DNA from: Haliea sp. E1-2-M8
Lineage (GTDB): Bacteria; Pseudomonadota; Gammaproteobacteria; Pseudomonadales; Halieaceae
DNA: 64,000 bases
Assembly: GCF_030649675.1 (NCBI RefSeq)
Contig: NZ_JAUTDR010000001.1
Location: 62,001 to 126,000 of the forward strand
Direction of reading: 5' to 3'
Shown here: in pieces, positions 5,083 through 27,767 of the stretch
Position numbering within the stretch: position 1 is the stretch's first letter
How the letters are laid out: every line of letters begins with the position of its first letter
Notes under the pieces: model-generated
The model's database searches: none
What the model was told of the DNA's origin: nothing
What the model saw: the letters and a program-made list of their open reading frames with translations, nothing else
Position numbers and translations under genes: made by a program

Positions 5083-5433
5083 TTATTCCGGCAGTAGCAT
5101 CATGTATACCTTGCGCACTTTTTCCACGACTTCTGCGGAGCCTTTCCAGCCTTTCGGAAAGACCCAGCTATCGCCGGCTCGAACCTCGGTGACCTTCCCG
5201 GATTCAGAGGTGAATCGCCAGTGACCCTCGAGCAGGTGACAGAATTCGGTGACGTCCAGATCCAGCTGTAGCGTGCCGGGCTCGCACTCCCACGTACCTG
5301 CAATCATATTGTCCTGTTTGAAAAAGCCTTTGTCGGTCTGTGTCGGCAAGGGGCCAACCGGCTCTCCAAACGAATCTGTCAATGCCAGGTCTGTGAGGGA
5401 GGCGCACTGGTGTTGAACACTGATTTCGGGCAT
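5083..5433 (-). CDS. Small cupin-domain protein (DUF861/Cupin_3 type)
   Basis: A 116-residue single-domain cupin. The beta-barrel core is visible from about residue 47 (GTWECEPGTLQLDLD) to the end, with EFCHLLEGHWRFTSESG and the closing GDSWVFPKGWKGSAEVVEK. Members of this family resemble ureidoglycine aminohydrolase and EutQ, and small Cupin_3 proteins often sit in amine or polyamine catabolic clusters. No function can be assigned from sequence. Its 3' end faces glmS, and its 5' end is divergent from the spermidine-dehydrogenase-like gene; the 189-base gap between them carries the shared 20-bp element. It is therefore probably the left edge of the accessory island. Confidence 0.8.
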   Translation of the reverse strand: MPEISVQHQCASLTDLALTDSFGEPVGPLPTQTDKGFFKQDNMIAGTWECEPGTLQLDLDVTEFCHLLEGHWRFTSESGKVTEVRAGDSWVFPKGWKGSAEVVEKVRKVYMMLLPE

Positions 5434-5495
5434 TTCCGAAGCTCTCCAATTCTGAATTCAGTGAAATTCTACGTCAGGGTGTGCCTGCATCGCTA

Positions 5496-5515
5496 CCTGG
5501 CCCATCGGCTCGGAG
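5496..5515. promoter_or_regulatory. Candidate operator, copy 1 of a shared 20-bp element
   Basis: Reads CCTGGCCC then ATCGGCTCGGAG. It differs from the element at 13325-13344 at one of 20 positions. Both copies lie in the gap between divergently transcribed genes of the same island, here between the cupin and the spermidine-dehydrogenase-like gene. Upstream, the pattern CCTG..AT..CGCT also recurs with small spacing differences. The identity is seen directly; binding by a regulator is inference. Confidence 0.5.
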
Positions 5516-5622
5516 ATCAGGGAAAAACCGGTAACTCCCGGTTGCCTCCTGCACTGTCAGCCGTGATGATAAGGAAGCTTGGCTGTGAGTCCGCTGCTCC
5601 CGGCAAAAATGAGGACTAACGC

Positions 5623-7542
5623 GTGGTGAATAAAAAGACAGACACAGAACTTGGTATGGACGCGGTTATTACACGCCGCGATCTGATCCACGACGCCGGC
5701 ATGGCGGCGCTGGCAATGGCGTTGTGTCCGTCTATTGTTGCCGCAGCGCCGGAGAAACCGGCGCCGGCCGCGAGCTCCCCGTCCGCCGCCGATTACCCTC
5801 CGGTCCGAACGGGCATGCGCGGGTCCCACCCGGGCGCCTTCGAGTCCGCCCATGCACTCGCCCGGGAGGGTCGCAGCTTTCCCGAGCCCGTCGATCTGGA
5901 CCAGCACTTTGACCTGGTGATCGTCGGTGCGGGTATCTCAGGACTGGCTGCGGCACGCTTTTACCAGCAGCGTTTCGGTGCGGACAGGCGGATCCTCCTG
6001 CTTGAGAACCACGATGATTTCGGCGGCCATGCGCGGCGCAACGAGTTCCACCAGGCCGGGCGCATGGTGCTGTCGATGGGTGGTACCCACAACCTCGAAT
6101 GGTGGGATTTCAGCGCAACGGTGCAGGAGTTCCTGAAAGACCACGGCGTCGATGTGGATTTGATGCGCGAACGGAAACAGTTCCACTACGGCGACACCGC
6201 GCCCAACAGCCCCGCAATGTGGTTCGATGCCGCAACGTATGGTGAAAACCGCCTGGTCGTCAACTGCGATCTGACCGCGCGCCTCGACTCCACGACGATC
6301 GATCAGATGCCGATCTCCGAGGCGGGTCGCGAGTCATTCAAGCACTTTTATGCCGCTCGCGAGGATCTGCTTGAGCACCTCGACGAGGCGCAAGCTGAAG
6401 ACTACCTGCGCAGCATTTCCTACCCGGAGTTCCTGCGCCGCCATGGCGGCCTCACGGAGGACGCCGTTCAGCTTTTCGCCAAGCTGGAGCACGGCGGCTG
6501 GGGCGTCGAGATGCGTGCGCTCTCGGCGCAGGAGGCGATGGAGAGCGGCTTTCCTGGGGTGCACCTGCTGGGTGGAAGCTGGGACGGGGAGGGCTGGGAC
6601 TATCCCGTAGCCATGTGGCCGGATGGCAACGCCAGCCTGGCGCGGCTGCAGGTGGCTACGTTGATCCCGGGGGTCGCGCCCGGTACCACGGCCGCTAACG
6701 TGGCAGTGGCGCGCTTCAATTACGCCGAGCTCGATCGCCCCGGGAATCCCGTGCGCCTGCGACTGAATTCGACGGTGATCAATACCGCGAATACGGAAGA
6801 CGGCGTTGCCGTGAGCTATATCAACGACGGCAAGGTGTTGCGGGTTACCGCAGGGCACTGCGTGCTCGCCTGCTATCACAGTATCATCCCGCACCTGTGC
6901 CCTGAGCTGCCGCAGTCCCAGCGCGAAGCGCTTGAGTATCAGGTAAAGCACCCCCTGTTGTTGACCAACGTGCTTATCCGCAACACCGACGCTCTCGATA
7001 CGCTCGGTATTGACGGTGTGCGTTGCCCGGGTCGCCTCATGGAGCGTCTGTTTACCTTTCGTGGCATCAACACCGGGGGTTACGAGCACGCCATTGATGA
7101 CTCCGGCCCGGTAGCGCTGGTCTTCTGGGGCAGTATTTCGCCGCCGGCGGACGCCGTGGACATCAAGAGTCAGTTACGTGCGTCGCGGGCTATCATGCTG
7201 GGTATGAGCTTTGAGGACTACGAGCGCGAGGTGCGCACGGTGCTCGACGGTCTGCTTGGTCCCGCGGGCTTCGATGTGCGGCGCGACATCCTGGCCATTA
7301 CCGTCAACCGCTGGCCGCATGGTTATGCCTACGAGTATCTCGACCTCTGGGATCCGGACTGGCCCGAGGACGAGGCGCCCCACGAGATCGCCCGCAAGCC
7401 GTTCGGCAGGATCGCGATCGCCAATACCGATGCGGCCGCGACCGCCTACACACACACTGCGATTGAGCAGGCCTGGCGTGCAGTGCAGGGGTTGCCGACG
7501 CGACGCCCCGCCGGTTTCAGTGAAGACCCGGGACAGCCATGA
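5623..7542 (+). CDS. Spermidine dehydrogenase-like FAD-dependent oxidoreductase, probable Tat export
   Basis: A 639-residue flavoprotein. The N-terminus has TRRDLIHDAG followed by a hydrophobic stretch ending in AAA (about residues 18-42), a plausible Tat signal. The FAD-binding Rossmann segment VIVGAGISGLAAARFY lies at about residues 97-115 and is followed by the family-typical ENHDDFGGHARRNEF. This combination resembles SpdH of Pseudomonas, a spermidine dehydrogenase that cleaves polyamines oxidatively in the cell envelope. Substrate identity is not provable from sequence. The chosen GTG start has GAGG eight bases upstream; a second GTG and an ATG at 5656 are alternatives. The stop overlaps the next gene (ATGA), implying translational coupling. 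Confidence 0.8.
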   Translation: MVNKKTDTELGMDAVITRRDLIHDAGMAALAMALCPSIVAAAPEKPAPAASSPSAADYPPVRTGMRGSHPGAFESAHALAREGRSFPEPVDLDQHFDLVIVGAGISGLAAARFYQQRFGADRRILLLENHDDFGGHARRNEFHQAGRMVLSMGGTHNLEWWDFSATVQEFLKDHGVDVDLMRERKQFHYGDTAPNSPAMWFDAATYGENRLVVNCDLTARLDSTTIDQMPISEAGRESFKHFYAAREDLLEHLDEAQAEDYLRSISYPEFLRRHGGLTEDAVQLFAKLEHGGWGVEMRALSAQEAMESGFPGVHLLGGSWDGEGWDYPVAMWPDGNASLARLQVATLIPGVAPGTTAANVAVARFNYAELDRPGNPVRLRLNSTVINTANTEDGVAVSYINDGKVLRVTAGHCVLACYHSIIPHLCPELPQSQREALEYQVKHPLLLTNVLIRNTDALDTLGIDGVRCPGRLMERLFTFRGINTGGYEHAIDDSGPVALVFWGSISPPADAVDIKSQLRASRAIMLGMSFEDYEREVRTVLDGLLGPAGFDVRRDILAITVNRWPHGYAYEYLDLWDPDWPEDEAPHEIARKPFGRIAIANTDAAATAYTHTAIEQAWRAVQGLPTRRPAGFSEDPGQP

Positions 7543-9137
7543 GCACTGCCAGCAAGGTGCCGATAGAACCCTGGATGCAGGAAACCCTCCGCGAAGGTTT
7601 TGCGCACCTGTCTGCAGGGCGCCCCAGCGAGGCATCGGCCTGCTGTAAACGTCTGCTTGGCGCCAAGGGCGATCTCGTCGAGGCGCATTTCCTCGTCGGG
7701 CTGATCGCCCTCGAACTCAAGCAGACCTGGCGTGCGGTTCAGGCCTTTGGCTCCGTGACCAGGCTACAGCCAGGTCATGCGGCTGCCTGGGCGAATCTTG
7801 CCCGCCTGTTCATGCAGGCGGGCCAGTCTGCCCGGGCGGACGCGGCGCTGGCCAAGGCAGTCGAACACAACGACGGCAACCCGACCGTGATGGATCTGAT
7901 CGGGACCGTGCATGGCCTCCTGGGTGATCAGCAAGAGGCAGGGGAATGGATCGCCCGCGCCCTCGAACAGCGGCCCGATAGTATCCCCTTCCTTCTTAAC
8001 CAGGCCAACAATCACATGTTCCTCGATCGCATAGAGGAAGCGGAAGCCGACCTGGAACGGGTGCTGGCGCAGAGCCCCTCGCATCCCAATGCGCACTGGC
8101 TCTGGTCCGGACTGAGGCGAGTGCAGGGTCGGGAACACGTCGAGCAACTCGAGCGGCTGATCGGCGATGAGTCGCAAAATCCCCGCTCGCTCGCCTTTCT
8201 CTGCTATGCGCTGGGCAAGGAGCTTGAGGATCTCGAGGACTGGGACCCGGCTTTCGAGGCCTTTGCGCGCGGCGCCCGCGCACGGCGCAAGACCATCGAT
8301 TTCGACGAGGCGGCGGAGGACCAGATGTACCAGGCATTTGCCGACACTTTCACTGAGTCCTGGTTATATGATGGTGCGCGGGGGCATGACGACCCGGCGC
8401 CGATCTTCGTGGTCGGCCAGCCGCGCACAGGCACCACGCTCGTGGAGCGTATCATCACCAGTCATTCGCAGGTGCATTCGGCGGGAGAGCTGAAACAGTT
8501 CGGGCACTGTGTTCGCCGTATGGGAGACTACCGCGAGCCTCGGCGCCAGTCCGCGAAGCTCGCGGAAATCGGCGCGGCGATCGACCCGGAGCAACTGGGC
8601 AAGGCTTATTTGCAGGCGACCCGCAAACTGCAGGGAACACAACCGCGCTTCGTCGACAAGTTGCCCCCCAACTACCTCTACCTGCCTTTGATCCTGAAAG
8701 CCCTGCCCAGGGCGAAGATCGTGCACTTGCGCCGCGACCCCATGGATGCCTGTTTCGCAAGCTTCAAGCAACTCTTTGCCGATGCCTATCCACATTCCTA
8801 CGACCAGGCTGAGATGGCGCGCCATCACGCGCGCTACTACCATCTCATGGCGACCTGGCGAGACCGCTTCGGCGACCGTTTCTTTGACATTTCCTACGAA
8901 GACACGGCCGCCAACCTCGAGCCGAATGCCCGCGCGCTTATCGACTTCCTGGAGCTGCCCTGGGAGGAGGCCTGCCTCTCGTTCCACGAGCAGAAAGCAG
9001 CGGTCACCACGGCGAGCGTGGTGCAGGTGCGTGAGCCAGCGCACACGCGCTCCGTCGGTCGCTGGCGTCGCTATGCGGAGCGGCTCTCGACCATGCGCGA
9101 CACGCTGGCTGCCAAAGGTGTCCCGGAAAGCCTCTGA
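7539..9137 (+). CDS. TPR-repeat sulfotransferase family protein
   Basis: A 532-residue two-domain protein. The first half (about residues 20-240) is made of tetratricopeptide-like helices, for example AWANLARLFMQAGQSARAD. The second half is a Sulfotransfer-type domain: the PAPS 5'-phosphosulfate loop VGQPRTGTTLVERII at about residues 291-305, and KIVHLRRDPMDACFASF near residue 392 as the 3'-phosphate site. Such proteins use PAPS or act as protein or metabolite sulfotransferases; the acceptor is unknown. The start ATG overlaps the stop of the upstream flavoprotein, so the two genes are expressed together. No signal peptide is seen, so the protein is probably cytoplasmic. Confidence 0.85.
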   Translation: MSTASKVPIEPWMQETLREGFAHLSAGRPSEASACCKRLLGAKGDLVEAHFLVGLIALELKQTWRAVQAFGSVTRLQPGHAAAWANLARLFMQAGQSARADAALAKAVEHNDGNPTVMDLIGTVHGLLGDQQEAGEWIARALEQRPDSIPFLLNQANNHMFLDRIEEAEADLERVLAQSPSHPNAHWLWSGLRRVQGREHVEQLERLIGDESQNPRSLAFLCYALGKELEDLEDWDPAFEAFARGARARRKTIDFDEAAEDQMYQAFADTFTESWLYDGARGHDDPAPIFVVGQPRTGTTLVERIITSHSQVHSAGELKQFGHCVRRMGDYREPRRQSAKLAEIGAAIDPEQLGKAYLQATRKLQGTQPRFVDKLPPNYLYLPLILKALPRAKIVHLRRDPMDACFASFKQLFADAYPHSYDQAEMARHHARYYHLMATWRDRFGDRFFDISYEDTAANLEPNARALIDFLELPWEEACLSFHEQKAAVTTASVVQVREPAHTRSVGRWRRYAERLSTMRDTLAAKGVPESL

Positions 9138-9324: not shown

Positions 9325-11814
9325 ATGGAGCCTCAACCATCCTCGTATTTTCCCGGAATCAGTACCACCGGCATCGCCTGCCGCGACGCGCGGGGGCTGC
9401 GCTTACCGAGCGCACCACGACGACTGCTGTCGCGGTCCGTGGCGGTGGCCATTCTGAGCGGTGCGGCTGTGACGCCGGCGGCAGCGCAGCAGCTCGAGGA
9501 GGTGATCGTTACCGCGACAAAACGCGCAGAGTCAGTAATGGACGTGCCGATTGCGATCACTGCGATGTCCGGCGCGGAAATCCGCAAGGTCAATCTCAGC
9601 GACATCAAGGACCTGATTTCCTTTACCCCGGGTATCAGCGGCAACAGCAAGGACAGCTTCCTCGATTTTGTCAGCGTTCGCGGCATTCGTACCATCGACT
9701 TTGGTAACGGCGGCGACCCGTCCGTCAGCCTTTACAAGAACGGACTCTATCAGGGCCGTAACGGGGCCGCTGTTTCCAGCCTCTACGATATCGAGCGCGC
9801 CGAGGTACTTCGCGGACCCCAGGGCTTCCTGTTCGGGCGCAACTCGGTGAGTGGCGCCATGAACATCATCACCGAGAAACCCGATGTCTCCGCGACCGAG
9901 GGCTATGCCGAGATCGACGTTGGTGAGCGTGGCGTTCTTACCCTGGAAGGCGCGGTAAACCTGCCCATCACCGAAAACCTCGCTGTGCGCATTGCAGGGT
10001 TTCACTCCGAAGAGGACGGCTATGTCGACAATCTCGCCGGTGGCGATGATCTTATTTCCCACGACAATCAGTCCCTGCGCATCACTACCCGCTACGAGAA
10101 CGAAAAACTGACCGCTGATCTGATTCTGGAATTCGATGACCGCAACCAGTTCGGCAGCGTTTACCGGGCTACCGGTGAGGGTACGGCATTTAAGGTCAAC
10201 CAGACGCGCATCAACGGCGGCGTGCCAATCGAAACCTCCGCGGATGGTCGCACCGTCAATAACGACAACTCGATGACACCCCGGGATGATTCCGATATCT
10301 TTTCCGTCGGCCTGCTTGTCGATTTTGATCTTGGCTGGGCGACGCTGACATCGCTGACCGGCTACAAGGACCACGAGTACGAGTACCTGGAGGATTACGA
10401 TGGGTTGCCCACGATCACCTTCAACTACGGGCAGAGCCAGTCGGGGGAGTATTTCGAGCAGGAGCTTCGCCTCGCGTCCAACAGTGAAGGCCCGCTGGAC
10501 TGGTACGCGGGCGCGTCCCTCTACGACGAGGACATCGACACCATATTTCTCGGCCAGCAGGAAGAGGATGTCTACTGCCTCGGGTACTGGTTCAACACCT
10601 GTTCCGATCTGTTTGACTACTACAACGGCCTGGACAGCTATTACGGTCAGACCACCTACTGTGACTACTACCTGGATTACTACTTTGGCAGCTGCGAATG
10701 GACACCTTCGCCCACCGGGCTGATCAACGACCGCAACCGGGTTGTCGGAAAATACCAGGGGTATTCAGCCTATCTGGATCTGGGCTACCGTTTCAGCGAA
10801 ACCCTCGACGGCTCCCTGGGTGTCCGCTACAGCTACGACGAGAAGGACTTTTCCCAGAATGCCCTGCCCGACCCGGGCGGCTCCCTGCTGCGGTACAAGG
10901 TTCAGACCGGTTTTTCCACCCCGGAAGGCGCGTTGCGCGACAAGCAGGACTGGAGTGAAGTTACCTGGCGCGCGGTGCTCAACTGGCGCCCCAGTCTGGA
11001 TACGTTGCTCTTTGCCAGCGTTGCAACCGGCTACAAGCCCGGTGGTTTTGGCAGCTTCAATATCGAGGGCCCCGGCAGCGAAGGCTGTCCCTTCGGCCTC
11101 TGTGTGGGCTTGCCCGGCCGCGATCGCCCCGGGGATTTCGGGCCTGAAACGGTGCTTTCCTACGAGATTGGCTACAAGGGGACATTGTGGGACGGGCGAG
11201 CCCAGGTAGCGACGACGGCGTTTTATTACGAGTACGAGGACTTGCAGGCGATTTTTGGCGAGGGCCCACGTACCCTCGTTGACAACGTCGGCGAGGTCGA
11301 GGGCATGGGGGTTGAGGTGGAAGCCAGCGTAGCGCTGACAGATCACCTGAAGTTCCGGACGGGGGGCTCCTGGTTCGATTCAGAAGCAACCAACGTCCAG
11401 GCTTTCTGTGGCGCGGGCGAAACGCTCACGGGATCCGCCGATGTCTGCGAGGGCAATTCTGTCCCCTGGGCACCGGAGTACACGGCGTTCGTGGTGCTTG
11501 ATGCCAATTACCCGCTGGGCAACGGTGAGGCCTTTGGCACCATCGCGTGGTCCTGGGAGGATGACTATCGTGGCGACTGGCCGGATAAGGACTTGATCTA
11601 CCAGCGAATCAAGGCTCTGAATCAGACTGACATTATCGTGGGTTATCGCCAGTCCAACTGGCAGGTGAGCGCCTACGTGGAGAATGTGTTCGACGATATC
11701 TGGTACGACGGCAACTACTCAGACGACCCCAGCGAGACCACGCTCTTCGTGCAGCATACCTTCGGTCCCTCCCGACCAAGGACCGCGGGTGTGAGACTGA
11801 GTTACACATTCTGA
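9325..11814 (+). CDS. TonB-dependent outer-membrane receptor with Tyr/Cys-rich loop insertion
   Basis: An 829-residue outer-membrane active transporter that imports a substrate using TonB energy. An export signal ends near AAAQQ (about residue 55). A TonB box EEVIVTA follows, and then the plug with SFTPGISG and a segment EVLRGPQGFLFGRNSVSGA. The rest is the beta-barrel, ending in GVRLSYTF with a C-terminal Phe as usual for outer-membrane insertion. Residues about 413-467 form a Tyr-, Asp- and Cys-rich insertion, most likely an extracellular loop. GGAGGAG lies 11 bases before the ATG. The long unstructured N-terminal part before the signal core leaves the exact start slightly uncertain. Island context suggests an amine-type ligand. 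Confidence 0.93.
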   Translation: MEPQPSSYFPGISTTGIACRDARGLRLPSAPRRLLSRSVAVAILSGAAVTPAAAQQLEEVIVTATKRAESVMDVPIAITAMSGAEIRKVNLSDIKDLISFTPGISGNSKDSFLDFVSVRGIRTIDFGNGGDPSVSLYKNGLYQGRNGAAVSSLYDIERAEVLRGPQGFLFGRNSVSGAMNIITEKPDVSATEGYAEIDVGERGVLTLEGAVNLPITENLAVRIAGFHSEEDGYVDNLAGGDDLISHDNQSLRITTRYENEKLTADLILEFDDRNQFGSVYRATGEGTAFKVNQTRINGGVPIETSADGRTVNNDNSMTPRDDSDIFSVGLLVDFDLGWATLTSLTGYKDHEYEYLEDYDGLPTITFNYGQSQSGEYFEQELRLASNSEGPLDWYAGASLYDEDIDTIFLGQQEEDVYCLGYWFNTCSDLFDYYNGLDSYYGQTTYCDYYLDYYFGSCEWTPSPTGLINDRNRVVGKYQGYSAYLDLGYRFSETLDGSLGVRYSYDEKDFSQNALPDPGGSLLRYKVQTGFSTPEGALRDKQDWSEVTWRAVLNWRPSLDTLLFASVATGYKPGGFGSFNIEGPGSEGCPFGLCVGLPGRDRPGDFGPETVLSYEIGYKGTLWDGRAQVATTAFYYEYEDLQAIFGEGPRTLVDNVGEVEGMGVEVEASVALTDHLKFRTGGSWFDSEATNVQAFCGAGETLTGSADVCEGNSVPWAPEYTAFVVLDANYPLGNGEAFGTIAWSWEDDYRGDWPDKDLIYQRIKALNQTDIIVGYRQSNWQVSAYVENVFDDIWYDGNYSDDPSETTLFVQHTFGPSRPRTAGVRLSYTF

Positions 11815-11833: not shown

Positions 11834-11875
11834 GCGCTGTAGCGGGCGCGGGGTCCACCGCTGTCGCTACAGCGC
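11834..11875. terminator. Inverted repeat between convergent genes, candidate bidirectional terminator
   Basis: GCGCTGTAGCG at 11834-11844 pairs perfectly with CGCTACAGCGC at 11865-11875, with a 20-base loop. It lies directly after the receptor gene, and its right arm contains the stop codon of the convergent glutamine-synthetase-like gene. No T-run is present. Confidence 0.45.
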
Positions 11876-13249
11876 CCGCAGGTACCAGCTGTAGTCCAGG
11901 TCGGGCACCTCTCCGTGATACAGGTCGCTCTCACCCTGGCGTTGCGCCGCATAGGATCGGGCATAGCATTCACCAAGATAGGCGGGAATGATTTTCCCGG
12001 CCCGGAACAGGTCGAGGGCGCCGTCGAGGCGGGTGGGAAAACTGACAGCCGCGGCTGAGAGATCTGCCTCGCGTGCTACCGGCTCGCCCGGGTCCGCGCC
12101 GCTGCGCATGCCATGGTGCAGGCCCGCGAGCACTGCCGCGAGGACGAGATACGGGTTCGCATCGGCACCGGCTATGCGGTGTTCGATGCGTCGGTTTTGT
12201 TCTGACGAAGCGGGAACGCGCAGGGCCACTTCGCGATGATCGTAGCCCCAGGTCGGACCCGACGGCGCAAACGCGCCCGCCTTGAAGCGGCGATAGGAGT
12301 TGGGATTGGGCGCGAAAATGGCCATGGCTTCGTTGACGGTGTTGACGAGGCCGCCGATGCCGTCCAGCAAAGTCTGCGTTATCTGCGGTGGCTCTGCAGG
12401 TTCCCTATGGGCAAAGACATTGACCCCCTCGCCGTTGTAGACGCTCGCGTGTATGTGCAGGCCGCTACCGCCCAGGTCCGCGAACGGTTTTGCCATGAAC
12501 GTTGCGCCAAGGCCATGGCGTCGGGCAATACCTTTGACCAGCCGGCGCAAGAGAAGCGCGTGATCGCCCGCCAGCAGCGCGTCCTGCTGATGGTGCGTGT
12601 TGATTTCCCATTGACCCGGTGAAAACTCGCTGTGGATCGCGGTAAGTGGCACCGACTGCAGTTCGCAGGCAAGGCGCACGTCCTCGAGGAACGCGTCGCA
12701 GTCCAGAAGGTCATCCGGCATGCAGTACTGGATACCGCCCTGGAGAAGTCCCGTGCCAGGCACACGCCCCATGAGCGGTTGCGGGCGCGCGCCGTCGCCA
12801 TCGGCCAGCAGGTAGAATTCAAGTTCCGTGGCGACCACGGGTGCCAGGCCGTCAGCCGCATAATGCTCCAGCACCCGCAGCAGTGGCGCCCGGGGGTCGA
12901 TCCAGCAGTAGCCTCCATCCTTATCCGCAAAGCCCGTGAGCACCTGCGCCGTGGGCGAGTCCAGCCAGGGAATGGGGGCAAGGGTACCGGCAACCGGGCG
13001 CAGGGTCTGGTCCGGATCGCCGCCGATAACAGCCTGATCCTGGCCGCTATACATGTCGCCGCGAACACCCAGGAACGGCACGGTCCGCGGCACCGAGAAC
13101 GAACCGGCAAAAAAGTCGTCGAATTCGCGGCGCTGGATCCGCTTGCAGCGCAGGAGGCCATTCATGTCGGGCATCAACAGCTCGAGCATGTGTGTGTCCG
13201 GATGCTGGCGTAAAAAGTCATCCAGTTCTTGCGGTTGTGCAAAGTCCAT
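11867..13249 (-). CDS. Glutamine synthetase family protein, gamma-glutamylpolyamine synthetase-like (PuuA type)
   Basis: A 460-residue type I/III glutamine-synthetase fold that probably joins glutamate to an amine with ATP. Visible signatures are the metal-binding ELEFYLL, EFSPGQWEINTHH, the GSGLHIHAS core motif, the ATP/glutamate segment YRRFKAGAFAPSGPTWGYDHR, and RIEHRIAGADANPYL near the end. Length and motifs fit PuuA-like ligases better than the biosynthetic GlnA. The start at 13249 (MDFAQPQ) is where homology-like sequence begins; the open frame runs further upstream into a proline-rich stretch that overlaps the divergent promoter. A PuuB-like oxidase in the same island supports a gamma-glutamylated amine pathway. 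Confidence 0.85.
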   Translation of the reverse strand: MDFAQPQELDDFLRQHPDTHMLELLMPDMNGLLRCKRIQRREFDDFFAGSFSVPRTVPFLGVRGDMYSGQDQAVIGGDPDQTLRPVAGTLAPIPWLDSPTAQVLTGFADKDGGYCWIDPRAPLLRVLEHYAADGLAPVVATELEFYLLADGDGARPQPLMGRVPGTGLLQGGIQYCMPDDLLDCDAFLEDVRLACELQSVPLTAIHSEFSPGQWEINTHHQQDALLAGDHALLLRRLVKGIARRHGLGATFMAKPFADLGGSGLHIHASVYNGEGVNVFAHREPAEPPQITQTLLDGIGGLVNTVNEAMAIFAPNPNSYRRFKAGAFAPSGPTWGYDHREVALRVPASSEQNRRIEHRIAGADANPYLVLAAVLAGLHHGMRSGADPGEPVAREADLSAAAVSFPTRLDGALDLFRAGKIIPAYLGECYARSYAAQRQGESDLYHGEVPDLDYSWYLRAL

Positions 13250-19695: not shown

Positions 19696-20997
19696 CTAGA
19701 GCGTGTCGCGCAACTTGAACCAGGCCATGCCGAGCGCCAGCCCCGGGCGCCGCAGAAGCTTGCCGCCGGGAAAGGAATGGTGCGGGATGCGCGCGAACAC
19801 ATCGAAATCCGTCGGCGAGCCGTCGATCATGGCAGCGGTGATGCGCGCCATCACATGGGTCGGTGCCACGCCGTGGCCCGAGTAGGCCTGGATATAGACG
19901 ATGTTGCCGTCCAGGCGCCCGAGCTGTGGCATACGGTTGAGACCAATGCCGATCTGGCCGCTCCAGCCGTAGTCGATACCAACATCCGCCAGCGCCGGGA
20001 ATACCCGCAGCATCTTGCGCCGCAGGGTGCCGACGAGGTCCCGCGGCTCCAGCCCGGTGTAGTTCGACAGGCCGCCGAAGAGCATGCGTTTGTCGGCAGA
20101 GAGACGGAAATAGTCCAGCGCTGTGCGCGGATCGCAGACAGCCACATCCCCCGGGATGAGTGACTGCGCGAGCTTGGCAGGCAGTGGTTCCGTGGCAATT
20201 ACGGAGCTGTTCGAGGGCAGGACACGGCTCGCCAGGCGGGGAATAACCTTGCCCAGGTAGGCGTTGCCGCAGAGTACCACCGTGTTGGCCCGGACGCTTC
20301 CCTGCGCCGTTACCACGCGGGGCCGCGCCCCGGGTATTATTTCGGTTACCCGCGACTGCTCGAATATGCGCGTGCCCAGGGACTCTGCAGCCCTGGCTTC
20401 ACCGAGGCAAAGGTTGAGCGGATGCAAGTGGCCGTTGGCGTGGTTGAGGAGGCCGCCGAGATAGACGTCGGCATTGACGTAGGCTCGCAGTTCCTCCCGG
20501 TCCAGGAGCCAATATTCATGTGGATTGCCGACGGCTGCCTGGTGGTCCCGCCACTCGGCGAACTGCCGCAGATGCCGCGGCTTGAGAGCCACATCGCAGT
20601 AGCCCCATTTGAGGTCGCAGTCGATGCCATAGCGCTCGGCCCGCTCGCGGATGATATCTGGCCCCTCGATACCCAGTTCATGGATGCGCCGGGCCCCATC
20701 GCTGCCGATGTGGCGTTGGAAACGCTCCGGGTCGTGACCGATGCCGCCAATGATCTGGCCCCCGTTTCGCCCCGAAGCGCCCCAGCCGAGGCGATTCGCC
20801 TCCAGCAGCACGACTTCGCGCCCGCGCTCGGCTAGCTCCAGTGCCGTGTTGATGCCCGTGAAGCCAGCACCGACAACGACCACGTCGGCCTCAACGTCGT
20901 TTGCAAGGGGAGCGTAATCGGTCTGCTGGTTGGCGGTAGCCGCGTAATAGGAACTCGTGTGTTCGGCGGTATCCAACGGTGGTCGCAGTCCAAACAT
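19696..20997 (-). CDS. PuuB-like FAD-dependent amine oxidase (DAO family)
   Basis: A 433-residue D-amino-acid-oxidase-type flavoprotein. The N-terminus carries HTSSYYAATANQQTDYAPL, a signature of gamma-glutamylputrescine oxidases, then VVVVGAGFTGINTALEL and RLGWGASGRNGGQIIGG. The C-terminal half has YGWSGQIGIGLNRMPQLG and IQAYSGHGVAPTHV. In E. coli PuuB oxidises gamma-glutamylputrescine to the aldehyde and releases ammonia and peroxide; the PuuA-like ligase in this island would supply such a substrate. It is the last gene of the minus-strand operon and starts 12 bases after the AraC-family gene. Confidence 0.85.
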   Translation of the reverse strand: MFGLRPPLDTAEHTSSYYAATANQQTDYAPLANDVEADVVVVGAGFTGINTALELAERGREVVLLEANRLGWGASGRNGGQIIGGIGHDPERFQRHIGSDGARRIHELGIEGPDIIRERAERYGIDCDLKWGYCDVALKPRHLRQFAEWRDHQAAVGNPHEYWLLDREELRAYVNADVYLGGLLNHANGHLHPLNLCLGEARAAESLGTRIFEQSRVTEIIPGARPRVVTAQGSVRANTVVLCGNAYLGKVIPRLASRVLPSNSSVIATEPLPAKLAQSLIPGDVAVCDPRTALDYFRLSADKRMLFGGLSNYTGLEPRDLVGTLRRKMLRVFPALADVGIDYGWSGQIGIGLNRMPQLGRLDGNIVYIQAYSGHGVAPTHVMARITAAMIDGSPTDFDVFARIPHHSFPGGKLLRRPGLALGMAWFKLRDTL

Positions 20998-21009: not shown

Positions 21010-21774
21010 TTAGCCGTCGCGCAGGGATTCACGGCGGAACTGCGCCGGCGTCTTGCCCGTAGCGCGCTTGAAGGCTGCGTAAAACGTAGATACCGAGTTG
21101 AAACCTACGTCCAGGGCGACGTCGAGGATGCCTGGACAATCCGTCGGTACCAACAGAATCTCTACGGCGTCACGGACGCGGTAGTGGTTGACGAAATCGA
21201 AGAAGCCCACGCCATGTCCCTCGTTGATCGCTTGCGACAGGTGATTGATGGAACAGCCGAGGTTGGTCGCCAGTTCTGGCAGGGACAGAAGGGAGTTGAG
21301 GTAGGCGCGCTCCTCCTCCATGGCTTCGCGCAGCCGACCCAGCAGCGCTTCCCGCGCCGCTGGGCTCAGGCCCGACTTGGCGTAGCGCTCGCTCCTGGCG
21401 GCGGCACCTCGCTCGCGCGTGAGCAGGAGCTGGTCCCGGTAGTAATCCTCAATACGCGTGGCACTGTCCCCGTCCAGGGTAATGAACTCGGCACCCATCC
21501 AGCCACTGGCCTCGAGGCCGTCGCCCGTGGGGCAGGCCAGATACTGGAAGGCAATCGTTTCCCGACCTTCGAGCACTTCGCCTACAAGGATGTAGCGGCT
21601 GGTGTCGCGGCTGAAGTACTCTTCCAGATGTGTGATCAAGTCGCGGCGGGCGAGCTGTCGCAGCTCGCCCATGTCGTGGTAGGTGCCCCCGACCGCGAGA
21701 TGGCCGGCGACACGAGTTGGGTCCTGTGCGTTCCAGGCCTCGATGTAGCTTTTGACGAACTCTGTGGACATCAT
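21010..21774 (-). CDS. AraC-family transcriptional regulator with N-terminal SnoaL-like domain
   Basis: A 254-residue regulator. Residues about 1-125 resemble the SnoaL/NTF2-like fold (FVKSYIEAWNAQDPTRVAGHL, IEDYYRDQ). Residues about 140-254 form an AraC-type double helix-turn-helix (LPELATNLGCSINHLSQAINE, DVALDVGFNSVSTFYAAFKR). An NTF2-like pocket in place of the usual cupin sensor is uncommon. The start at 21774 (first of two adjacent ATG codons) is preceded by AGGAGG at good spacing; the open frame extends further but lacks family-like sequence. It lies between the GcvT-like and PuuB-like genes and is the most likely local regulator. Confidence 0.85.
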   Translation of the reverse strand: MMSTEFVKSYIEAWNAQDPTRVAGHLAVGGTYHDMGELRQLARRDLITHLEEYFSRDTSRYILVGEVLEGRETIAFQYLACPTGDGLEASGWMGAEFITLDGDSATRIEDYYRDQLLLTRERGAAARSERYAKSGLSPAAREALLGRLREAMEEERAYLNSLLSLPELATNLGCSINHLSQAINEGHGVGFFDFVNHYRVRDAVEILLVPTDCPGILDVALDVGFNSVSTFYAAFKRATGKTPAQFRRESLRDG

Positions 21775-21905: not shown

Positions 21906-23102
21906 TCACCGGTCGGGTGCGGGAGTCTGACGGGTGCGCGCAGGTGCCCAGAAAGGCTTGTCACGTACTGTGCAGCGCGCGACCTTGCGGTAGGGGCGCA
22001 ACTCCTTCGGGTAGTAGATCTCGGCGAAGATGTCGCCAGCAAGGTACTTTGTCCTGACCATGGCGAGGGCGATATTGGCCTTGGCAGCCGGTGACCACAT
22101 GGCCGACGTTACATAGCCGATTTCCCCTTTGCAGCGCCGGTCGGCATAGAGGATTGCGTCGTTGGCCGGCTTGTTGCCCTCGATATCGAGCTTCACGAGC
22201 GTGTACTTCGGCCCCTTGTCCCGCTCGCGGAGCAGAGCGCTGCGACCATTGAAATGGGGTTTGCGGAAATCCACAAGCCAGCCGAGATTGAGTTCGAAGG
22301 GCGTCTGGTCGAGTTGGAAATTCACCGTCTTCAGCGCCTCGTTGAACTCCATGGCCGGCATGATGAAGCCCGCCTCGAGACGGGCCATGTTGGTGGCCGC
22401 CTCGCCGTAGGGATGAATGCCGTGGTGCTCGCCCGCGCTGTAGAGCGCGTCCCAGAGGTCCAGGGCCAGCGAGCGGTCGATCCAGAGTTCATAGCCGAGA
22501 TCCCCGCTGAATCCGGTTCGGGAAACCATCAGCGTGTCACCGCGAAAATCGAAGTGCAGGATCCCGAAGGGCTTGAGCTGCTCGATAGCCGCAAGCCCCA
22601 TGGCCTTGAGTACCGCGCAGGCGGTAGGTCCCTGCAGGGACAGACCGGCGCGCTCCTCACTGATATCCCGCACCGTCAGCTCAGTAAAACCGAGGGCGCT
22701 CTGGCGCAGCCAGGCCAGGCAGGGGCTGCCACAGGTCAGCATGTAGTGATCGTCGCCGAGTCGAAAAATGGTGCCGTCGTCGATCATGCGCCCTTCGTCC
22801 GTGCACCAGCAGCAGTAGGTCACCCGGTCTAATTTCAGCTTCGCCACGTCCCGGGTCACCATCCGGTTGAGCATGGCGAGGGCGTCGGCACCGCGGATCT
22901 CGTACTTCTGCATCGGGCAGATGTCGTAGGTGCCGCAGGTATTGCGTATGCAAAAGTACTCGTACTGGGCGTCGTAATAGTAATCGGCGAACTTGTAGCT
23001 GTTCCAGCTGGACCAGGCATCGCGCAGGTTCATGGGCGCCTGCCTGGCATGAAAGGGAGAGAGTTTGAGCCGTTCGCCGGCGAAAGGGTCTGTGTGTTCC
23101 AT
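21906..23102 (-). CDS. Stand-alone GcvT-like aminomethyltransferase family protein
   Basis: 398 residues with the folate-binding GcvT/DmdA/sarcosine-dehydrogenase-tail fold. Seen are RGADALAMLNRMVTRDV near the start of the conserved core, GRMIDDGTIFRLGDDHYML, SRTGFSGDLGYELW and EAGFIMPAMEFNEA. The family moves a one-carbon unit (methylene or methyl) from an amine or sulfonium to tetrahydrofolate. No gcvH or gcvP is nearby, so it is not part of the glycine cleavage system. An unusual Cys-rich N-terminal part is present (CIRNTCGTYDICPMQ). Only 3 bases separate it from oxidoreductase C, which suggests a joint oxidation and C1-transfer step. Confidence 0.82.
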   Translation of the reverse strand: MEHTDPFAGERLKLSPFHARQAPMNLRDAWSSWNSYKFADYYYDAQYEYFCIRNTCGTYDICPMQKYEIRGADALAMLNRMVTRDVAKLKLDRVTYCCWCTDEGRMIDDGTIFRLGDDHYMLTCGSPCLAWLRQSALGFTELTVRDISEERAGLSLQGPTACAVLKAMGLAAIEQLKPFGILHFDFRGDTLMVSRTGFSGDLGYELWIDRSLALDLWDALYSAGEHHGIHPYGEAATNMARLEAGFIMPAMEFNEALKTVNFQLDQTPFELNLGWLVDFRKPHFNGRSALLRERDKGPKYTLVKLDIEGNKPANDAILYADRRCKGEIGYVTSAMWSPAAKANIALAMVRTKYLAGDIFAEIYYPKELRPYRKVARCTVRDKPFWAPARTRQTPAPDR

Positions 23103-23105
23103 GGC

Positions 23106-24725
23106 CTACTCGTCGTAGCAGTCGTCGTCGGGGACTACATTGGGCTTTTTCAGGTCGCGGAGGATTTCCCGCGCCGCGTTGGCTCCGCAGGCCGCGGACA
23201 CGCCGCCGCCGGGGTGCGTCGAGGAACCGCACATATAGAAGTTGCGCAGGGGCATGCGGTACTGCCCATAGCCAGGGAAGGGACGGTTGAAGAGCAGCTG
23301 GTCGATGGTGAGCTCTCCCTGGAAGATGTTGCCCTGGGTGAGCCCGATCTCGGCCTCGATCTCGTGCGGCGTACGCACCTCCATGTGCACGATCAGGTCC
23401 TTGAAGCCGGGGCTGTAGCGCTCCAGCTTGTTGATCACCGTCTGGCCGAAGGCATCGCGTTTTTCCGGGGTCCAGGGACCGTCGGCCAGCTCGGGCGGGC
23501 AATACTGGACGAAGTTTGACATCCAGTGTTTGCCGGCCGGTGCCACGGTCGGGTCCCAGGCGCTCGGTATTATCGATTCGATGAACGGGTCCTCGGACCA
23601 GGTGCCGCGTTTCCAGGCGTCGTAGGCGCGCTCCATGGTTTCCAGGGAGCCCGCGAAAGTCTGGCCACCACGGTTGATATAGCGGTTGTCGGGTAGCCCC
23701 TTGAAGCGCGGCAGGCCCGAGAGCGCGATGTTGACCTTGCCGGAGGAGCCGCGGATCTTGAAGTTCCGCGCCCGCTCGAGGATGCGCGGCGGCAATTCCT
23801 CTGGCTGCAGCAGCCTGGTGAAGGTGCGCTTGGCATCAAGGTTGGACACAACGATATTGGCGTGCAGCTCATCGCCGTTCTCCAGCGCCACGCCCACGGT
23901 GGTGCCGTTGCGCACGAGGATGCGCTCCACCCCGGCGCAGGTGCGGATCTCGCCGCCCGCTTCCCGCAGCGCGTTGGCAATGGCATGGGAAATGGCACCC
24001 ATGCCGCCGCGTGCCAGACCCCAGGCGCCAACGCTGCCGTCGACGTCGCCCATCACATGGTGCAGCAGGATGTAGGCGGAGCCCGGGGACTGTACGCCCA
24101 GCGCCGTGCCGATAATGCCGGGGCTCGCCATCGCCGCCTTGATCAGATCGTTTTCGAAGTAGTCCTCAAGGAAATCCGCCGCGCTCATGGTGAAGAAGCG
24201 CATGTACTCATAGAGTTCGCGCTCCCCGAGCGCCCAGAACTCTTTCGCCAGGAACAGTATTTCGCGGATATCTCGCGGCTTGAAAGACGCCGGATCTGGC
24301 GGCGTGCGCATCAAGGTCTTGCGAATCAGCTGCGCGTAGCGGCCGAGGTCAGCCTGGAAGCGAGACATGGCGTCGGCGTCGTGCGGCGAGTGGCGCTGCA
24401 GCTCCAGGTAGTGCGCCCCTTCATCCGGATAATCGATGAGGGTGTTGCCGTCGTCACCGAAGGCCACCGTACCCAGGTAGGGCACGAGCAGCAGACCGTG
24501 GCGGGAAAGATCGAGATCGCGGTGCAGGGACTGGCGCATCATGCTGCAGACGTAAGAGCAGCTCGAGTAATGCCAGCCCTCGTGCAGTTCCCGCGTGACC
24601 GCAGCGCCGCCGATATAGTCGTTTTTTTCCAGCACGACCACGTCGAGCCCGGCCCGGGCGAGATAGGCCGCATTGGTAAGGCCGTTGTGCCCCGCGCCGA
24701 TAACGATTGCGTCGTAGCGCTTCAC
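23106..24725 (-). CDS. CrtI/PYROXD2-like FAD-dependent oxidoreductase C
   Basis: A third paralogue, 539 residues. The N-terminus reads YDAIVIGAGHNGLTNAAYLA, then EKNDYIGGAAVTRELHEG. The C-terminus has FYMCGSSTHPGGGVSAACGANAA and a tail of acidic residues ending DDDCYDE. The GTG start overlaps the TGA stop of oxidoreductase D, so they are translationally coupled. It is close to the GcvT-like gene, and the two may form a functional pair in which the flavoprotein oxidises an amine and the folate protein takes up the one-carbon group; this is inference. Confidence 0.85.
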   Translation of the reverse strand: MKRYDAIVIGAGHNGLTNAAYLARAGLDVVVLEKNDYIGGAAVTRELHEGWHYSSCSYVCSMMRQSLHRDLDLSRHGLLLVPYLGTVAFGDDGNTLIDYPDEGAHYLELQRHSPHDADAMSRFQADLGRYAQLIRKTLMRTPPDPASFKPRDIREILFLAKEFWALGERELYEYMRFFTMSAADFLEDYFENDLIKAAMASPGIIGTALGVQSPGSAYILLHHVMGDVDGSVGAWGLARGGMGAISHAIANALREAGGEIRTCAGVERILVRNGTTVGVALENGDELHANIVVSNLDAKRTFTRLLQPEELPPRILERARNFKIRGSSGKVNIALSGLPRFKGLPDNRYINRGGQTFAGSLETMERAYDAWKRGTWSEDPFIESIIPSAWDPTVAPAGKHWMSNFVQYCPPELADGPWTPEKRDAFGQTVINKLERYSPGFKDLIVHMEVRTPHEIEAEIGLTQGNIFQGELTIDQLLFNRPFPGYGQYRMPLRNFYMCGSSTHPGGGVSAACGANAAREILRDLKKPNVVPDDDCYDE

Positions 24726-26266
24726 GACAGGATCACCCGCGCCGCATTGTGGCCGGGAGCGCCCGACAGCCCGCCGCCGGGGTGACTGCCCGCGCCACAG
24801 AGGAACAGGCCGGGGATGGGCGTTGCGTACTGGGCGGCCTCGTAGGTCGGGCGCATCATGAGCAGCTGGTCAATGGCGAACTCGGTATGGTGCCAGTGGC
24901 CGCCGGTCACGCCGTGCAGTGTTTCCAGGTCCGCGGGCGTCAGCAGCTCCGCATGCAACACGAGTTTCCGCAGCCCCGGTGCGTAGCGCTCCAGTTCGTC
25001 CAGGAGGCGCGAGGTCAGCGCCTCCCGGGCGTCGGCGGTCCAGCCCCCCTTGAGCCTGGCGGGCACATACATCACATGGGCAGAGAGCAGATGCTGACCC
25101 GGAGGCGCCAGCGCAGGTTCCCGCAGGCTTGGGATCACGATTTCCATGACCGGATCACTGGAGCACTGCCCATACTTGGCATCGTCGAAGGCGAACTCGA
25201 TGGCGTCGAGATCCGGCGCGATGATCATCCTGCCGTCCGCCTGTTCGAGCCCGCGGAACCGGGGTTCTTCCGCGAGGGCGAGGTGCAGCTTGGCGACATA
25301 GCCCTCGCAGCGGAGTCGGCGGATGCGGTTGCTGAACCCAATCTCCAGGTGTCTGGTGCCAACCAGCTCGAGGAATGTACGCTGGGGATCCGCGGAGGAG
25401 ACCACGCGGTCCGCGGCGATACGCTCGCCGCTGGCGAGTTCGACGCCGGTGGCACGTAACCCGGACTCATCGCCTTCGACCAGGATTTGCTTCACCGCCG
25501 CACCCAGACGCAGCTGGGCGCCCGCACCCGTCGCCGCGGCAACCAGCGCGTCGATCAGTCCCCGGATGCCCGCCTGCGGCACGACGTGCTGGCCGCCGTG
25601 TTCGCCGCAAAGACGGTAGAGCAGCATCAGCACGCTCTGGTTTGGCGAACGGGGTGCGAGTCGGCCGCCGATGATGCCGTCCCAGCTGAGTGCGGCCTTG
25701 AGGCGATCGTTGGCGAAGTTCTCGTCCAAGAGATCGCGCATGGGCAAGGTCGCCACGCGGAAGAACTCGAGCATGTCCTCCCGGCCGAGGCGCCGCAGGC
25801 GCAGCCCCAGCTGGGCGAAGGTGAGCAGCTCTTGCGCACTGTTGCCACCGATGCCCGGCATCCGTTTCATCCAGAACGGGGCGAGGGCGTCCCGGAAAGT
25901 CTCCAGCTCTGCCCGGTAGCGCCGATACCTGTCCGCGTCTTCGGCATCGACGCCGCTGACGCCCTCGGCGGTTATGGCAACGTGGTTTCCTTCCGGGTCC
26001 AGCCCGATGGTCGACAGCGGCTTGCCACTGTCGGCATAACCGTGTTTGGCAAGCTCCAGCTCTTTGGCTATCTGCGGCGAAAACTGGTAAACCGTATGCG
26101 CAGCGGCGACGTGGAACCCCGGGTGGAACTCCCGGGTGCTGGCGAGACCGCCGGCTGCGTCGGCGGCCTCGACAAGCAATACGCGTTGACCGTGCCGGGC
26201 CAGGTAGGCGGCACAGATCAGGCCGTTATGGCCAGCGCCAACGATGATGGTGTCGTAGCGGTCCAA
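24722..26266 (-). CDS. CrtI/PYROXD2-like FAD-dependent oxidoreductase D
   Basis: A fourth paralogue, 514 residues from the proposed TTG start. The FAD motif YDTIIVGAGHNGLICAAYLA begins three codons after it, and the C-terminus reads LFLCGAGSHPGGGLSGAPGHNAA. The TTG has GGGAG six bases upstream. An upstream ATG (26410) would add 48 residues without flavoprotein-like features and would overlap the divergent methyltransferase start, so it is rejected. It is the first gene of the minus-strand operon. All four CrtI-like genes in this island begin with GTG or TTG. Confidence 0.82.
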   Translation of the reverse strand: MDRYDTIIVGAGHNGLICAAYLARHGQRVLLVEAADAAGGLASTREFHPGFHVAAAHTVYQFSPQIAKELELAKHGYADSGKPLSTIGLDPEGNHVAITAEGVSGVDAEDADRYRRYRAELETFRDALAPFWMKRMPGIGGNSAQELLTFAQLGLRLRRLGREDMLEFFRVATLPMRDLLDENFANDRLKAALSWDGIIGGRLAPRSPNQSVLMLLYRLCGEHGGQHVVPQAGIRGLIDALVAAATGAGAQLRLGAAVKQILVEGDESGLRATGVELASGERIAADRVVSSADPQRTFLELVGTRHLEIGFSNRIRRLRCEGYVAKLHLALAEEPRFRGLEQADGRMIIAPDLDAIEFAFDDAKYGQCSSDPVMEIVIPSLREPALAPPGQHLLSAHVMYVPARLKGGWTADAREALTSRLLDELERYAPGLRKLVLHAELLTPADLETLHGVTGGHWHHTEFAIDQLLMMRPTYEAAQYATPIPGLFLCGAGSHPGGGLSGAPGHNAARVILS

Positions 26267-26268
26267 GC

Positions 26269-26296
26269 CACACTCCCGCGCTGATGTCAGAGTGTG
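26269..26296. promoter_or_regulatory. Inverted repeat covering the ribosome binding site of oxidoreductase D
   Basis: CACACTC (26269-26275) and GAGTGTG (26290-26296) are perfect 7-base arms with a 14-base spacer. In the minus-strand transcript the right-hand arm contains the GGAG ribosome binding site just before the TTG start. It could be an operator in this 142-base divergent promoter region, or a hairpin that limits translation. Confidence 0.4.
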
Positions 26297-26408
26297 AAAG
26301 CCTAGGAGCGCGCTTCGGGTGCGGCAACCGCGCCTATACGCCGGGACTTGTCTCACAGGGACGGCGCCAACAGGGAAAAACATTCGCCGCTGTGCTTTAC
26401 TGGCAAGC

Positions 26409-27179
26409 ATGAGTCACCGCGATGAATACGATACGGCCATGCTCGCGGCCATGAACCTGATCTGGGGCGAGGGTTTCATGGCGCCGGGCGGAGTGGGGCA
26501 CGTGGAGAAGCTCGTAGCGGGTCTGGCTCTCGCGGACCAGCGGCTGCTCGATATTGGCTGTGGCCAGGGCATGCCGGCGTGCCTGCTCGCGGAGCGCCAT
26601 GGCGCCAGGGTCGTCGGCACAGATCTCGAGCATCACCTCGTGCGCCGCTCCCGGTCCCGGGCCGAGCGCCTGGGTGTCGCCGATCGTGCCACTTTCCTCA
26701 CGGTGCAGCCGGGGCCGCTCTGCTTTGCCGACGGGAGCTTCGACGTGGTGATCAGTACCGGAGCGTTTACCCAGGTAGAGGACAAGCTCGGCATGTTCCG
26801 CGAATGCTACCGGGTCCTGCGGCCCGGCGGGAAGCTGCGCTGTTATGACTGGATGCGCAGCGGGGATGGCTACAGTGATGCGATGCGCCGGTGGTTGAAA
26901 CTGGAGGGCCTTACCTACGCCATGGAAACCGCCGCCGGCCAGGCGGCGCTGCTGACTGAGGCGGGCTTTGGTGACGTACAGGTGATGGATGCCTCTGCCT
27001 GGTATCGCGCCGCTGTGCGCCGCGAATACGAGGCGCTCACCGGGCCGCTGCGGCAACCGCTGACGGCGCTGTTGGGTGCGGATCAGGCAGTGCATTTCAT
27101 CGACAACTGGCGCGCCAGCTGTGACGTCTGTGAACGCGGCGAGATGCGCCAGGTTTACATGCGCGCGTGCCGTCCCTAG
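26409..27179 (+). CDS. Class I SAM-dependent methyltransferase
   Basis: 256 residues with a standard Rossmann methyltransferase fold. Motif I is LLDIGCGQGMPACLLA (about residues 46-61), followed by VVGTDLE, then FDVVISTGAFTQVED and RVLRPGGKLRCYDW. The overall pattern resembles small-molecule or phospholipid-base N-methyltransferases, but the acceptor cannot be named. The start at MSHRDEYD is chosen because the upstream part of the frame is not methyltransferase-like and overlaps the divergent promoter. It is divergent from oxidoreductase D, and so is probably controlled with the island. Confidence 0.82.
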   Translation: MSHRDEYDTAMLAAMNLIWGEGFMAPGGVGHVEKLVAGLALADQRLLDIGCGQGMPACLLAERHGARVVGTDLEHHLVRRSRSRAERLGVADRATFLTVQPGPLCFADGSFDVVISTGAFTQVEDKLGMFRECYRVLRPGGKLRCYDWMRSGDGYSDAMRRWLKLEGLTYAMETAAGQAALLTEAGFGDVQVMDASAWYRAAVRREYEALTGPLRQPLTALLGADQAVHFIDNWRASCDVCERGEMRQVYMRACRP

Positions 27180-27766: not shown

Positions 27767-27767
27767 C

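Follow-up and report, generated by a model that had tools for sequence, protein, structure and literature searches.

A conserved unit of two CrtI-type flavoproteins and a GcvT-like folate protein in Halieaceae and other Proteobacteria: a candidate folate-coupled N-demethylase of methylated di- or polyamines

Introduction

What reaction brings together four related flavin adenine dinucleotide (FAD) proteins, a GcvT-like folate protein and a set of amine-degradation genes? This question is raised by a gene cluster of Haliea sp. E1-2-M8 (Halieaceae) located at positions 5083–27179 of a 64,000-nucleotide stretch of contig NZ_JAUTDR010000001.1 (assembly GCF_030649675.1, contig positions 62,001 to 126,000, forward strand), hereafter the window. 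The source genome comprises 4.8 Mb in 94 contigs and belongs to the same family as strains NOR5-3 (G221), HTCC2148 (G241) and HTCC2080 (G280). An earlier reading of the sequence alone, hereafter the original prediction, saw in the whole cluster an uptake-to-oxidation pathway for an amine, with four paralogous oxidases and a lone GcvT protein. In this work we found that the GcvT-like gene and two of the four oxidase genes, designated OxA and OxB, almost certainly form a conserved functional unit, judging from gene order and co-occurrence in relatives. On balance we favor the view that this unit is a folate-coupled oxidative N-demethylase of methylated di- or polyamines, joined in Haliea to a gamma-glutamylation route.

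Results

The GcvT-Like Gene Is a Constant Partner of OxA and OxB

The GcvT-like protein cannot be called lone, as it is conserved together with two of the four oxidases, in a unit located at 21906–26266. The OxB and OxA genes overlap by four bases, and GcvT starts three bases after the OxA stop. To describe the distribution of the unit (hereafter the trio) we used several samples. In the order sample (293 genomes, with at most four OxA and six GcvT candidates scored per genome) 26 OxA places with at least 59% identity were revealed in 16 genomes, and GcvT was found within 2 kb at all 26 of them; in genome G082 the GcvT match was in two pieces. One more GcvT place (48% identity) was located on contig C201 of genome G113, where a fragment of OxB adjoins it at the start of the contig. 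Because the number of candidates per genome was limited, further copies may have been missed. In the phylum sample (398 genomes; E ≤ 1e-150 for OxA and ≤ 1e-75 for GcvT; three and four candidates scored per genome, respectively) both genes were held by the same 11 genomes, that of Haliea sp. E1-2-M8 included. In the other 10 the gap between OxA and GcvT was 1.6–1.9 kb, which leaves room for OxB.

In a scan of named genomes we considered the best 79 loci of 584 relatives. A complete trio on one strand was present in 74 of these 79 loci, with median distances of 2–125 nt between the matched segments. Of the loci without a full trio, four (L082, L103, L111, L114) run into the end of a contig, and locus L120 contains OxA only. 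Two gene orders were revealed: OxA-OxB-GcvT (ABG; 59/79) and OxB-OxA-GcvT (BAG; 20/79), the latter being that of the window. Both orders were found in five loci (L071, L074, L078, L085, L091), where two trios, one per gene order, are located close to each other. Loci L044, L049 and L050 each contain two ABG trios on opposite strands. The distance matrices of the three genes, calculated for the 79 trios of the 74 loci, were correlated with r of 0.83–0.90 (the maximum over 500 permutations was 0.09), a pattern that genes moving together should show. In addition, 20 regions of relatives picked by their GcvT match and three of 169 matching plasmid records contained 26 copies of each gene, arranged in 26 trios.

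Halieaceae, Woeseiaceae, Porticoccaceae, Mesorhizobium, Rhizobium and Kiloniella are among the names in the titles of the trio-bearing records. Loci L186 (about 7.4–11.8 kb) and L188 (about 10.2–13.9 kb) contain a more distant relative of the trio, in which the GcvT-like and OxA-like proteins are 34–35% and 48% identical to those of the window and the OxB-like protein is 35–36% identical to its nearest reference. The trio genes are currently annotated as "NAD(P)/FAD-dependent oxidoreductase" and "aminomethyltransferase family protein". The original prediction knew of no described pathway with this gene set; likewise, our searches of a library of open-access papers (preprints not covered) revealed no description of the trio or of the cluster. 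PMC12478193 deals with the cobalamin route of glycine betaine and not with the trio.

The GcvT Member Resembles the Folate Part of Trimethylamine N-Oxide Demethylase

The best NCBIfam model for the 398-residue GcvT-like protein was that of trimethylamine N-oxide (TMAO) demethylase (TmaoDeMthMsil, NF053776; 237 bits), followed by the canonical GcvT model (197 bits). The former match covers only positions 388–760 of the 763 of the profile and lies far below its cut-off of 1100, so the protein is not itself a TMAO demethylase (Tdm). Similarly, its nearest solved relative was TMAO demethylase 9q5a (156 bits), then GcvT 1yx2 (142 bits). The DDGT and TG(E/D).G(Y/F)E segments, shared with Tdm, are kept in the protein of the window. 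In a tree for which E. coli GcvT was chosen as the root, the 24 trio proteins formed one group (support 86), and this group, together with three other GcvT-like proteins, was placed beside the folate domains of Tdm.

OxA and OxB Belong to Two of Four Old Clades of CrtI-Type Flavoproteins

As originally predicted, the four flavoproteins of the window (Ox1, Ox2, OxA and OxB) are related to each other: they match over nearly full length with 33–45% pairwise identity. For the phylogeny, four of 81 matches were dropped, namely two amine oxidases of distant kinship, a truncated OxB-like protein and a duplicate Ox1; the four proteins of the window were added afterwards. The tree of 81 rows, obtained by a quick search without bootstrap and with rows labeled by their best match to the window proteins, contained OxA, OxB, Ox1 and Ox2 as four separate groups, each branch with a Shimodaira–Hasegawa-like approximate likelihood ratio of 99–100. 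Judged from their sequences, the four are old paralogues and not a local amplification. The notion of a single functional group of four had to be abandoned, since the clades are separate and the trio is widespread without the rest.

Ox1 should be considered a family of its own, because it is present in genomes without a match to the trio GcvT. In seven of 14 searched genomes the best matches were Ox1-like proteins (50–52% identity), and at E 1e-40 the trio GcvT was matched in none of these seven. Eight neighbors of Ox1-like genes in four loci without the trio revealed no shared amine theme; in one locus (L177, 9727–11301) an Ox1-like gene without the trio lies in the same stretch as an oligopeptide-type ABC (ATP-binding cassette) transporter and a gamma-glutamyltranspeptidase. 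Ox2 adjoins a sodium:solute symporter (SSS) gene in HTCC2080 and in genome G009.

The nearest named models of all four proteins were CrtO (NF045689; 228–260 bits, cut-off 1000) and CrtI (TIGR02734, crtI_fam; 96–128 bits, cut-off 238.1). They share with flavoproteins of the CrtI/CrtO type, to which PYROXD2 may also belong, the fold and the GAGHNG and HPGGG segments, but fall far below both cut-offs and cannot be assigned to the carotenoid desaturases or ketolases. By their sequences, the trio flavoproteins keep the FAD-binding motifs. AlphaFold models (predicted local distance difference test, pLDDT, of 88.2 for OxB and 83.5 for OxA) were compared by Foldseek with solved structures; for both, gamma-carotenoid desaturase 4rep came first, followed among others by 3ka7, CrtI, NicA2 and putrescine oxidase, and for OxA also by Rab GDI. 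The window proteins may be kin of PYROXD2 as well; the PDB matches included no entry for it.

Amine-Related Genes Accompany the Trio

To characterize the gene company, regions of at least 15 kb were counted: 72 of 97 loci, comprising 56 ABG and 16 BAG regions (71 without the window). Three of the 16 BAG regions also carry an ABG trio. The controls were 40 regions without trio matches, located away from trios in 13 trio-bearing genomes of the order. It should be mentioned that the tested families had been picked for their recurrence beside trios, with query proteins from the same loci, that the loci share ancestry, and that a large part of the ABG regions belongs to groups not represented in the controls; the counts are therefore descriptive, and p values for the contrast are not to be relied on. 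Leaving out self-matches changed none of them.

A class III aminotransferase gene was found in 38 of 56 ABG regions (BAG 3/16, controls 0/40), Pot polyamine transporter genes in 36/56 (BAG 2/16, controls 3/40), a gene for a GbcA-like Rieske oxygenase in 32/56 (BAG 0/16, controls 1/40) and that of a BetI-like TetR regulator in 44/56 (controls 0/40). Relatives of the PuuA-like ligase of the window were present in 12/56 ABG, 5/16 BAG and 0/40 control regions, and relatives of its DAO-type oxidase in 8/56, 10/16 and 1/40, respectively. The SnoaL-AraC regulator was restricted to BAG regions (12/16; ABG 0/56, controls 0/40). At least one of the five amine families (Pot, Rieske oxygenase, aminotransferase, ligase, DAO) was detected in 51/56 ABG, 11/16 BAG and 5/40 control regions. 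Hidden Markov models, applied to a single representative of each family, identified transporter proteins of PotF, PotG, PotH and PotI types and an aminotransferase above the PRK07036 cut-off; the GbcA-like representatives reached 143 and 286 bits with a cut-off of 670. A single BAG region of the 16 (L043) contains two Rieske genes, which are of another type.

Several other genes were observed near the trios. A hydrophobic protein of about 285 residues (cluster c12; L062, 12817–13710, and relatives) is encoded in 14 of 23 BAG loci and in three others; none was seen in the window, and the protein matched no Pfam or NCBIfam family. In NOR5-3 (L042, 4257–6308) a gene for a 683-residue molybdopterin oxidoreductase is located just upstream of OxB, and in locus L113 a gene for 680 residues occupies that place, in a stretch matching FdsA at 22%. 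In the window, genes for an NAD-linked formate dehydrogenase (FdsG, FdsB and FdsA types) and FdhD follow directly after the cluster (27278–33038, plus strand).

A Probable Gamma-Glutamyl Route Is Joined to the Trio in Haliea

The ligase of the window is more similar to PuuA (35% identity) than to GlnA (25%). Aligned with both E. coli proteins, it keeps E129, E131, E212, E220, H269, R321, R339, R344, E357 and R359, while D50, S53, Y179 and E327 are replaced or absent, as in PuuA (residues chosen after the glutamine synthetase literature). Thus, the glutamate and ATP residues are kept and the ammonium pocket (D50/Y179/E327) is lost, as in a gamma-glutamyl-amine ligase. At the same time, the score with the PuuA model NF045547 was only 192.7 bits with a cut-off of 650. 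The DAO-type oxidase is homologous to E. coli PuuB over its full length (46.7% identity over 424 residues). The original prediction of a SpdH-like flavoprotein proved justified, and homology to solved SpdH is near full-length (427 bits, residues 42–624 of 639). Taken together, the ligase pocket, the PuuB-like oxidase and the SpdH homologue suggest a di- or polyamine whose primary amine is free. The likeness to the Puu pathway is confined to the ligase without an ammonium pocket and the oxidase; it differs in that tblastn revealed no match to PuuC or PuuD within the window and in that the route is joined to the trio.

Strain NOR5-3 shares with the window the trio, the regulator, the ligase, DAO, the cupin, Ox1, SSS, the major facilitator superfamily (MFS) transporter and Ox2. 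The Halieaceae metagenome-assembled genome (MAG) of locus L113 shares the trio, the regulator, the ligase, DAO, the cupin, Ox1 and Ox2. HTCC2148 and HTCC2080 share large parts of the cluster, with no Ox2 in the former and no Ox1 in the latter in the stretches read. The idea of a conserved amine-catabolic set is supported by this co-location, by the gamma-glutamyl chemistry and by the kinship to SpdH, while a complete route from uptake to oxidation is a proposal; the trio is also widespread in the absence of the other genes.

The genes named in the original prediction are in place (Table 1), and family scans support SSS, MFS, GcvT, AraC, the methyltransferase, the TonB receptor and Gln-synt_C. 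The two converging transcription units were also recognized correctly: Ox1-SSS-MFS-Ox2 (13407–19680, plus strand) and OxB-OxA-GcvT-SnoaL/AraC-DAO (26266–19696, minus strand). The ligase gene is divergent from Ox1. Position 5083, taken as the start of the feature, belongs to a cupin gene on the minus strand, whose relatives adjoin Ox1 in NOR5-3, HTCC2148 and locus L113. SSS genes are located near Ox1 or Ox2 in relatives. The methyltransferase cluster and the cluster of the tetratricopeptide repeat (TPR)-sulfotransferase each recurred in 12 of the 97 loci with a trio, the window counted. Predicted promoters and terminators in the segment 19600–27400 were about as numerous as in shuffled sequence.

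Table 1. Genes of the Haliea sp. E1-2-M8 cluster, with positions in the window
Gene product	Position	Strand	Remarks
Cupin_3 protein	5083–5433	-	PF05899, 74.9 bits
SpdH homologue	5623–7542	+	Solved SpdH 7d9i/7d9f, about 427 bits
TPR-sulfotransferase	7539–9137	+	
TonB-dependent receptor	9325–11814	+	PF00593, 109 bits
Gamma-glutamyl-amine ligase, PuuA-like	11867–13246	-	Start picked from relatives' length
Ox1, CrtI-superfamily FAD protein, own clade	13407–14987	+	
Sodium:solute symporter (SSS)	15059–16831	+	PF00474, 89.8 bits
MFS transporter	16868–18091	+	PF07690, 63 bits
Ox2, CrtI-superfamily FAD protein, own clade	18088–19680	+	
DAO-type amine oxidase, PuuB-like	19696–20997	-	DAO, 235 bits
SnoaL-like/AraC regulator	21010–21774	-	HTH_18, 64 bits; SnoaL_2 sub-threshold; start picked from relatives' length
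GcvT-like folate protein, 398 residues, trio member	21906–23102	-	PF01571, 189 bits
OxA (Ox3), CrtI-superfamily FAD protein, trio member	23106–24725	-	
OxB (Ox4), CrtI-superfamily FAD protein, trio member	24722–26266	-	
S-adenosylmethionine-dependent methyltransferase, divergent from OxB	26403–27179	+	Methyltransf_11, 78 bits

Discussion

We propose the following role for the OxA-OxB-GcvT unit. A methylated amine would enter the cell by means of the SSS, MFS and TonB uptake genes of the window. One or both of OxA and OxB would oxidize an N-methyl amine (R-N-CH3) to the iminium (R-N=CH2+), and GcvT would take that carbon, as imine or formaldehyde, to form 5,10-methylene-tetrahydrofolate (THF), with the electrons leaving via FAD to an acceptor. 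The PuuA-like ligase and the PuuB-like oxidase would handle the end that bears the primary amine. A GbcA-type Rieske oxygenase could first open a trimethylammonium group where such a gene is present, in ABG regions. The trio probably performs folate-coupled N-demethylation; provided that it does, the evidence leans slightly toward a methylated di- or polyamine as its substrate. Since the trio of the window is tied to the gamma-glutamyl route and to uptake genes, the most likely substrate would be a di- or polyamine that carries N-methyl groups as well as a primary amine. The unit itself is well supported by genomics, while we infer its reaction, complex formation and substrate.

Several kinds of enzymes couple demethylation to folate. 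Heterotetrameric sarcosine oxidase and dimethylglycine oxidase/dehydrogenase link the flavin-dependent oxidation of N-methyl amines to a GcvT-type folate site. They differ from the trio in having a DAO-type flavin part and a fused folate domain, whereas the trio consists of three separate proteins: its GcvT is encoded by a gene of its own, and OxA and OxB match CrtI-type models best. Tdm shares with the trio the best-scoring relationship to its GcvT, the DDGT segment and the methylated-amine context; on the other hand, it is one protein of about 770–800 residues with a different N-terminal half, whereas the trio GcvT is a separate protein accompanied by two flavoproteins. PMC5520151 describes DmmD, a separate GcvT-domain protein whose gene is co-located with those of dimethylamine monooxygenase in the screened marine Roseobacter isolates. 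This dmmDABC arrangement resembles the trio in that a separate GcvT-domain protein is encoded with an N-demethylating system, but the monooxygenase DmmABC stands in place of the FAD-containing CrtI-type proteins. Tdm-type proteins and DmmD are precedents for a GcvT domain in the breakdown of methylated amines.

Some observations weigh against the proposed function. Tdm outscores canonical GcvT by a modest margin only (237 vs 197 bits); OxA and OxB are nearest in fold to carotenoid desaturase and not to any known N-demethylase, and the first match of the OxA profile was CrtI. The association of the genes has exceptions: OxA occurs alone in L120, and a GcvT-like protein (about 40–41% identity) was found in G099 (L190, at about 10.4 kb) with no OxA or OxB match nearby. 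The contrast in gene company with the controls is only descriptive, and in the BAG class, to which the window belongs, there is no GbcA-like Rieske gene, Pot genes are present in two of 16 regions and 5/16 contain none of the five amine families. One-carbon genes are not enriched beside trios (FolD 1/71; PurU 2/71, controls 1/40; MetF equally not), nor were FdsB and FdhD found beside any of the 71 other trios. The formate dehydrogenase adjacent to the cluster of the window may be a chance neighbor, and it was not used as support because FolD, PurU and MetF are not enriched. Finally, the evidence fits a free-formaldehyde route and a channeled one alike.

Among the alternatives, the strongest, although we regard it as unlikely, keeps the same chemistry and assigns it to N-methylated amino acids such as N6-methyllysines or N-methylpipecolate, with Pot, the ligase and the oxidase serving a side product or another nutrient. 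The best NCBIfam model of the PuuB-like oxidase is indeed that of L-pipecolate oxidase AmaA (187 bits, cut-off 600). Furthermore, in PMC8109053 human PYROXD2, a presumed relative, is the gene closest to the lead variants associated with N6-methyllysine, N6-dimethyllysine and N-methylpipecolate in blood, and its variants are also associated with trimethyllysine; the association with methyl- and dimethyllysine at PYROXD2 is reported as well in PMC9730628. An amino acid substrate is less easily reconciled with the frequent polyamine transporter genes of ABG regions (36/56), with a window ligase that looks like an amine ligase and with the presence of a SpdH homologue in the window. Homarine was also considered, and the literature yielded nothing usable on it.

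We consider it improbable that OxA and OxB are ordinary deaminating amine oxidases and that GcvT scavenges formaldehyde made elsewhere, for instance by a Rieske oxygenase. Such scavenging has a parallel in DmmD, for which PMC5520151 proposes a role in reducing the toxicity of formaldehyde next to dimethylamine monooxygenase, and a suitable source could be the GbcA-like enzyme encoded in 32/56 ABG regions; however, GcvT stays with OxA and OxB in the regions that contain no GbcA-like gene (24/56 ABG and 16/16 BAG). Slightly less probable still is a direct transfer of the methyl group by GcvT to form 5-methyl-THF, as in DmdA and LigM, after which the flavoproteins would dehydrogenate the carbon skeleton. 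The DmdA, LigM and DesA models do match the trio GcvT (143, 66 and 70 bits, respectively), but Tdm and canonical GcvT match it better, MetF is found in 0/71 trio regions, and this route does not need the strict linkage of flavoproteins and GcvT. Carotenoid or other lipid desaturation beside unrelated amine genes is scarcely credible, as CrtO, CrtI and a desaturase fold are the nearest named relatives but at scores far below the cut-offs, and the flavoproteins have a constant folate-protein partner and the company of amine genes.

Folate-coupled N-demethylation as known so far relies on DAO-type flavoenzymes, on TMAO demethylase or on DmmD beside an oxygenase, and the design of the trio, with three separate genes, would differ from all of them. 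We tentatively suggest a new class of N-demethylases, in which two CrtI-type flavoproteins replace the DAO-type flavin part, which would serve as an exchangeable module for many methylated amines and which would point to human PYROXD2 as an N-methyl-amine (methyllysine) dehydrogenase. The precise function of PYROXD2 is little known according to PMC8777681. The methyllysine associations cited above fit N-methyl-amine oxidation by the superfamily but prove nothing about the bacterial trio. If the proposed function is true, it would provide a role for genes of diverse Proteobacteria now annotated only as members of oxidoreductase and aminomethyltransferase families, and could open a marine route for the nitrogen of methylated polyamines; should the chemistry of the flavoproteins prove transferable, it would also offer a testable idea for PYROXD2.

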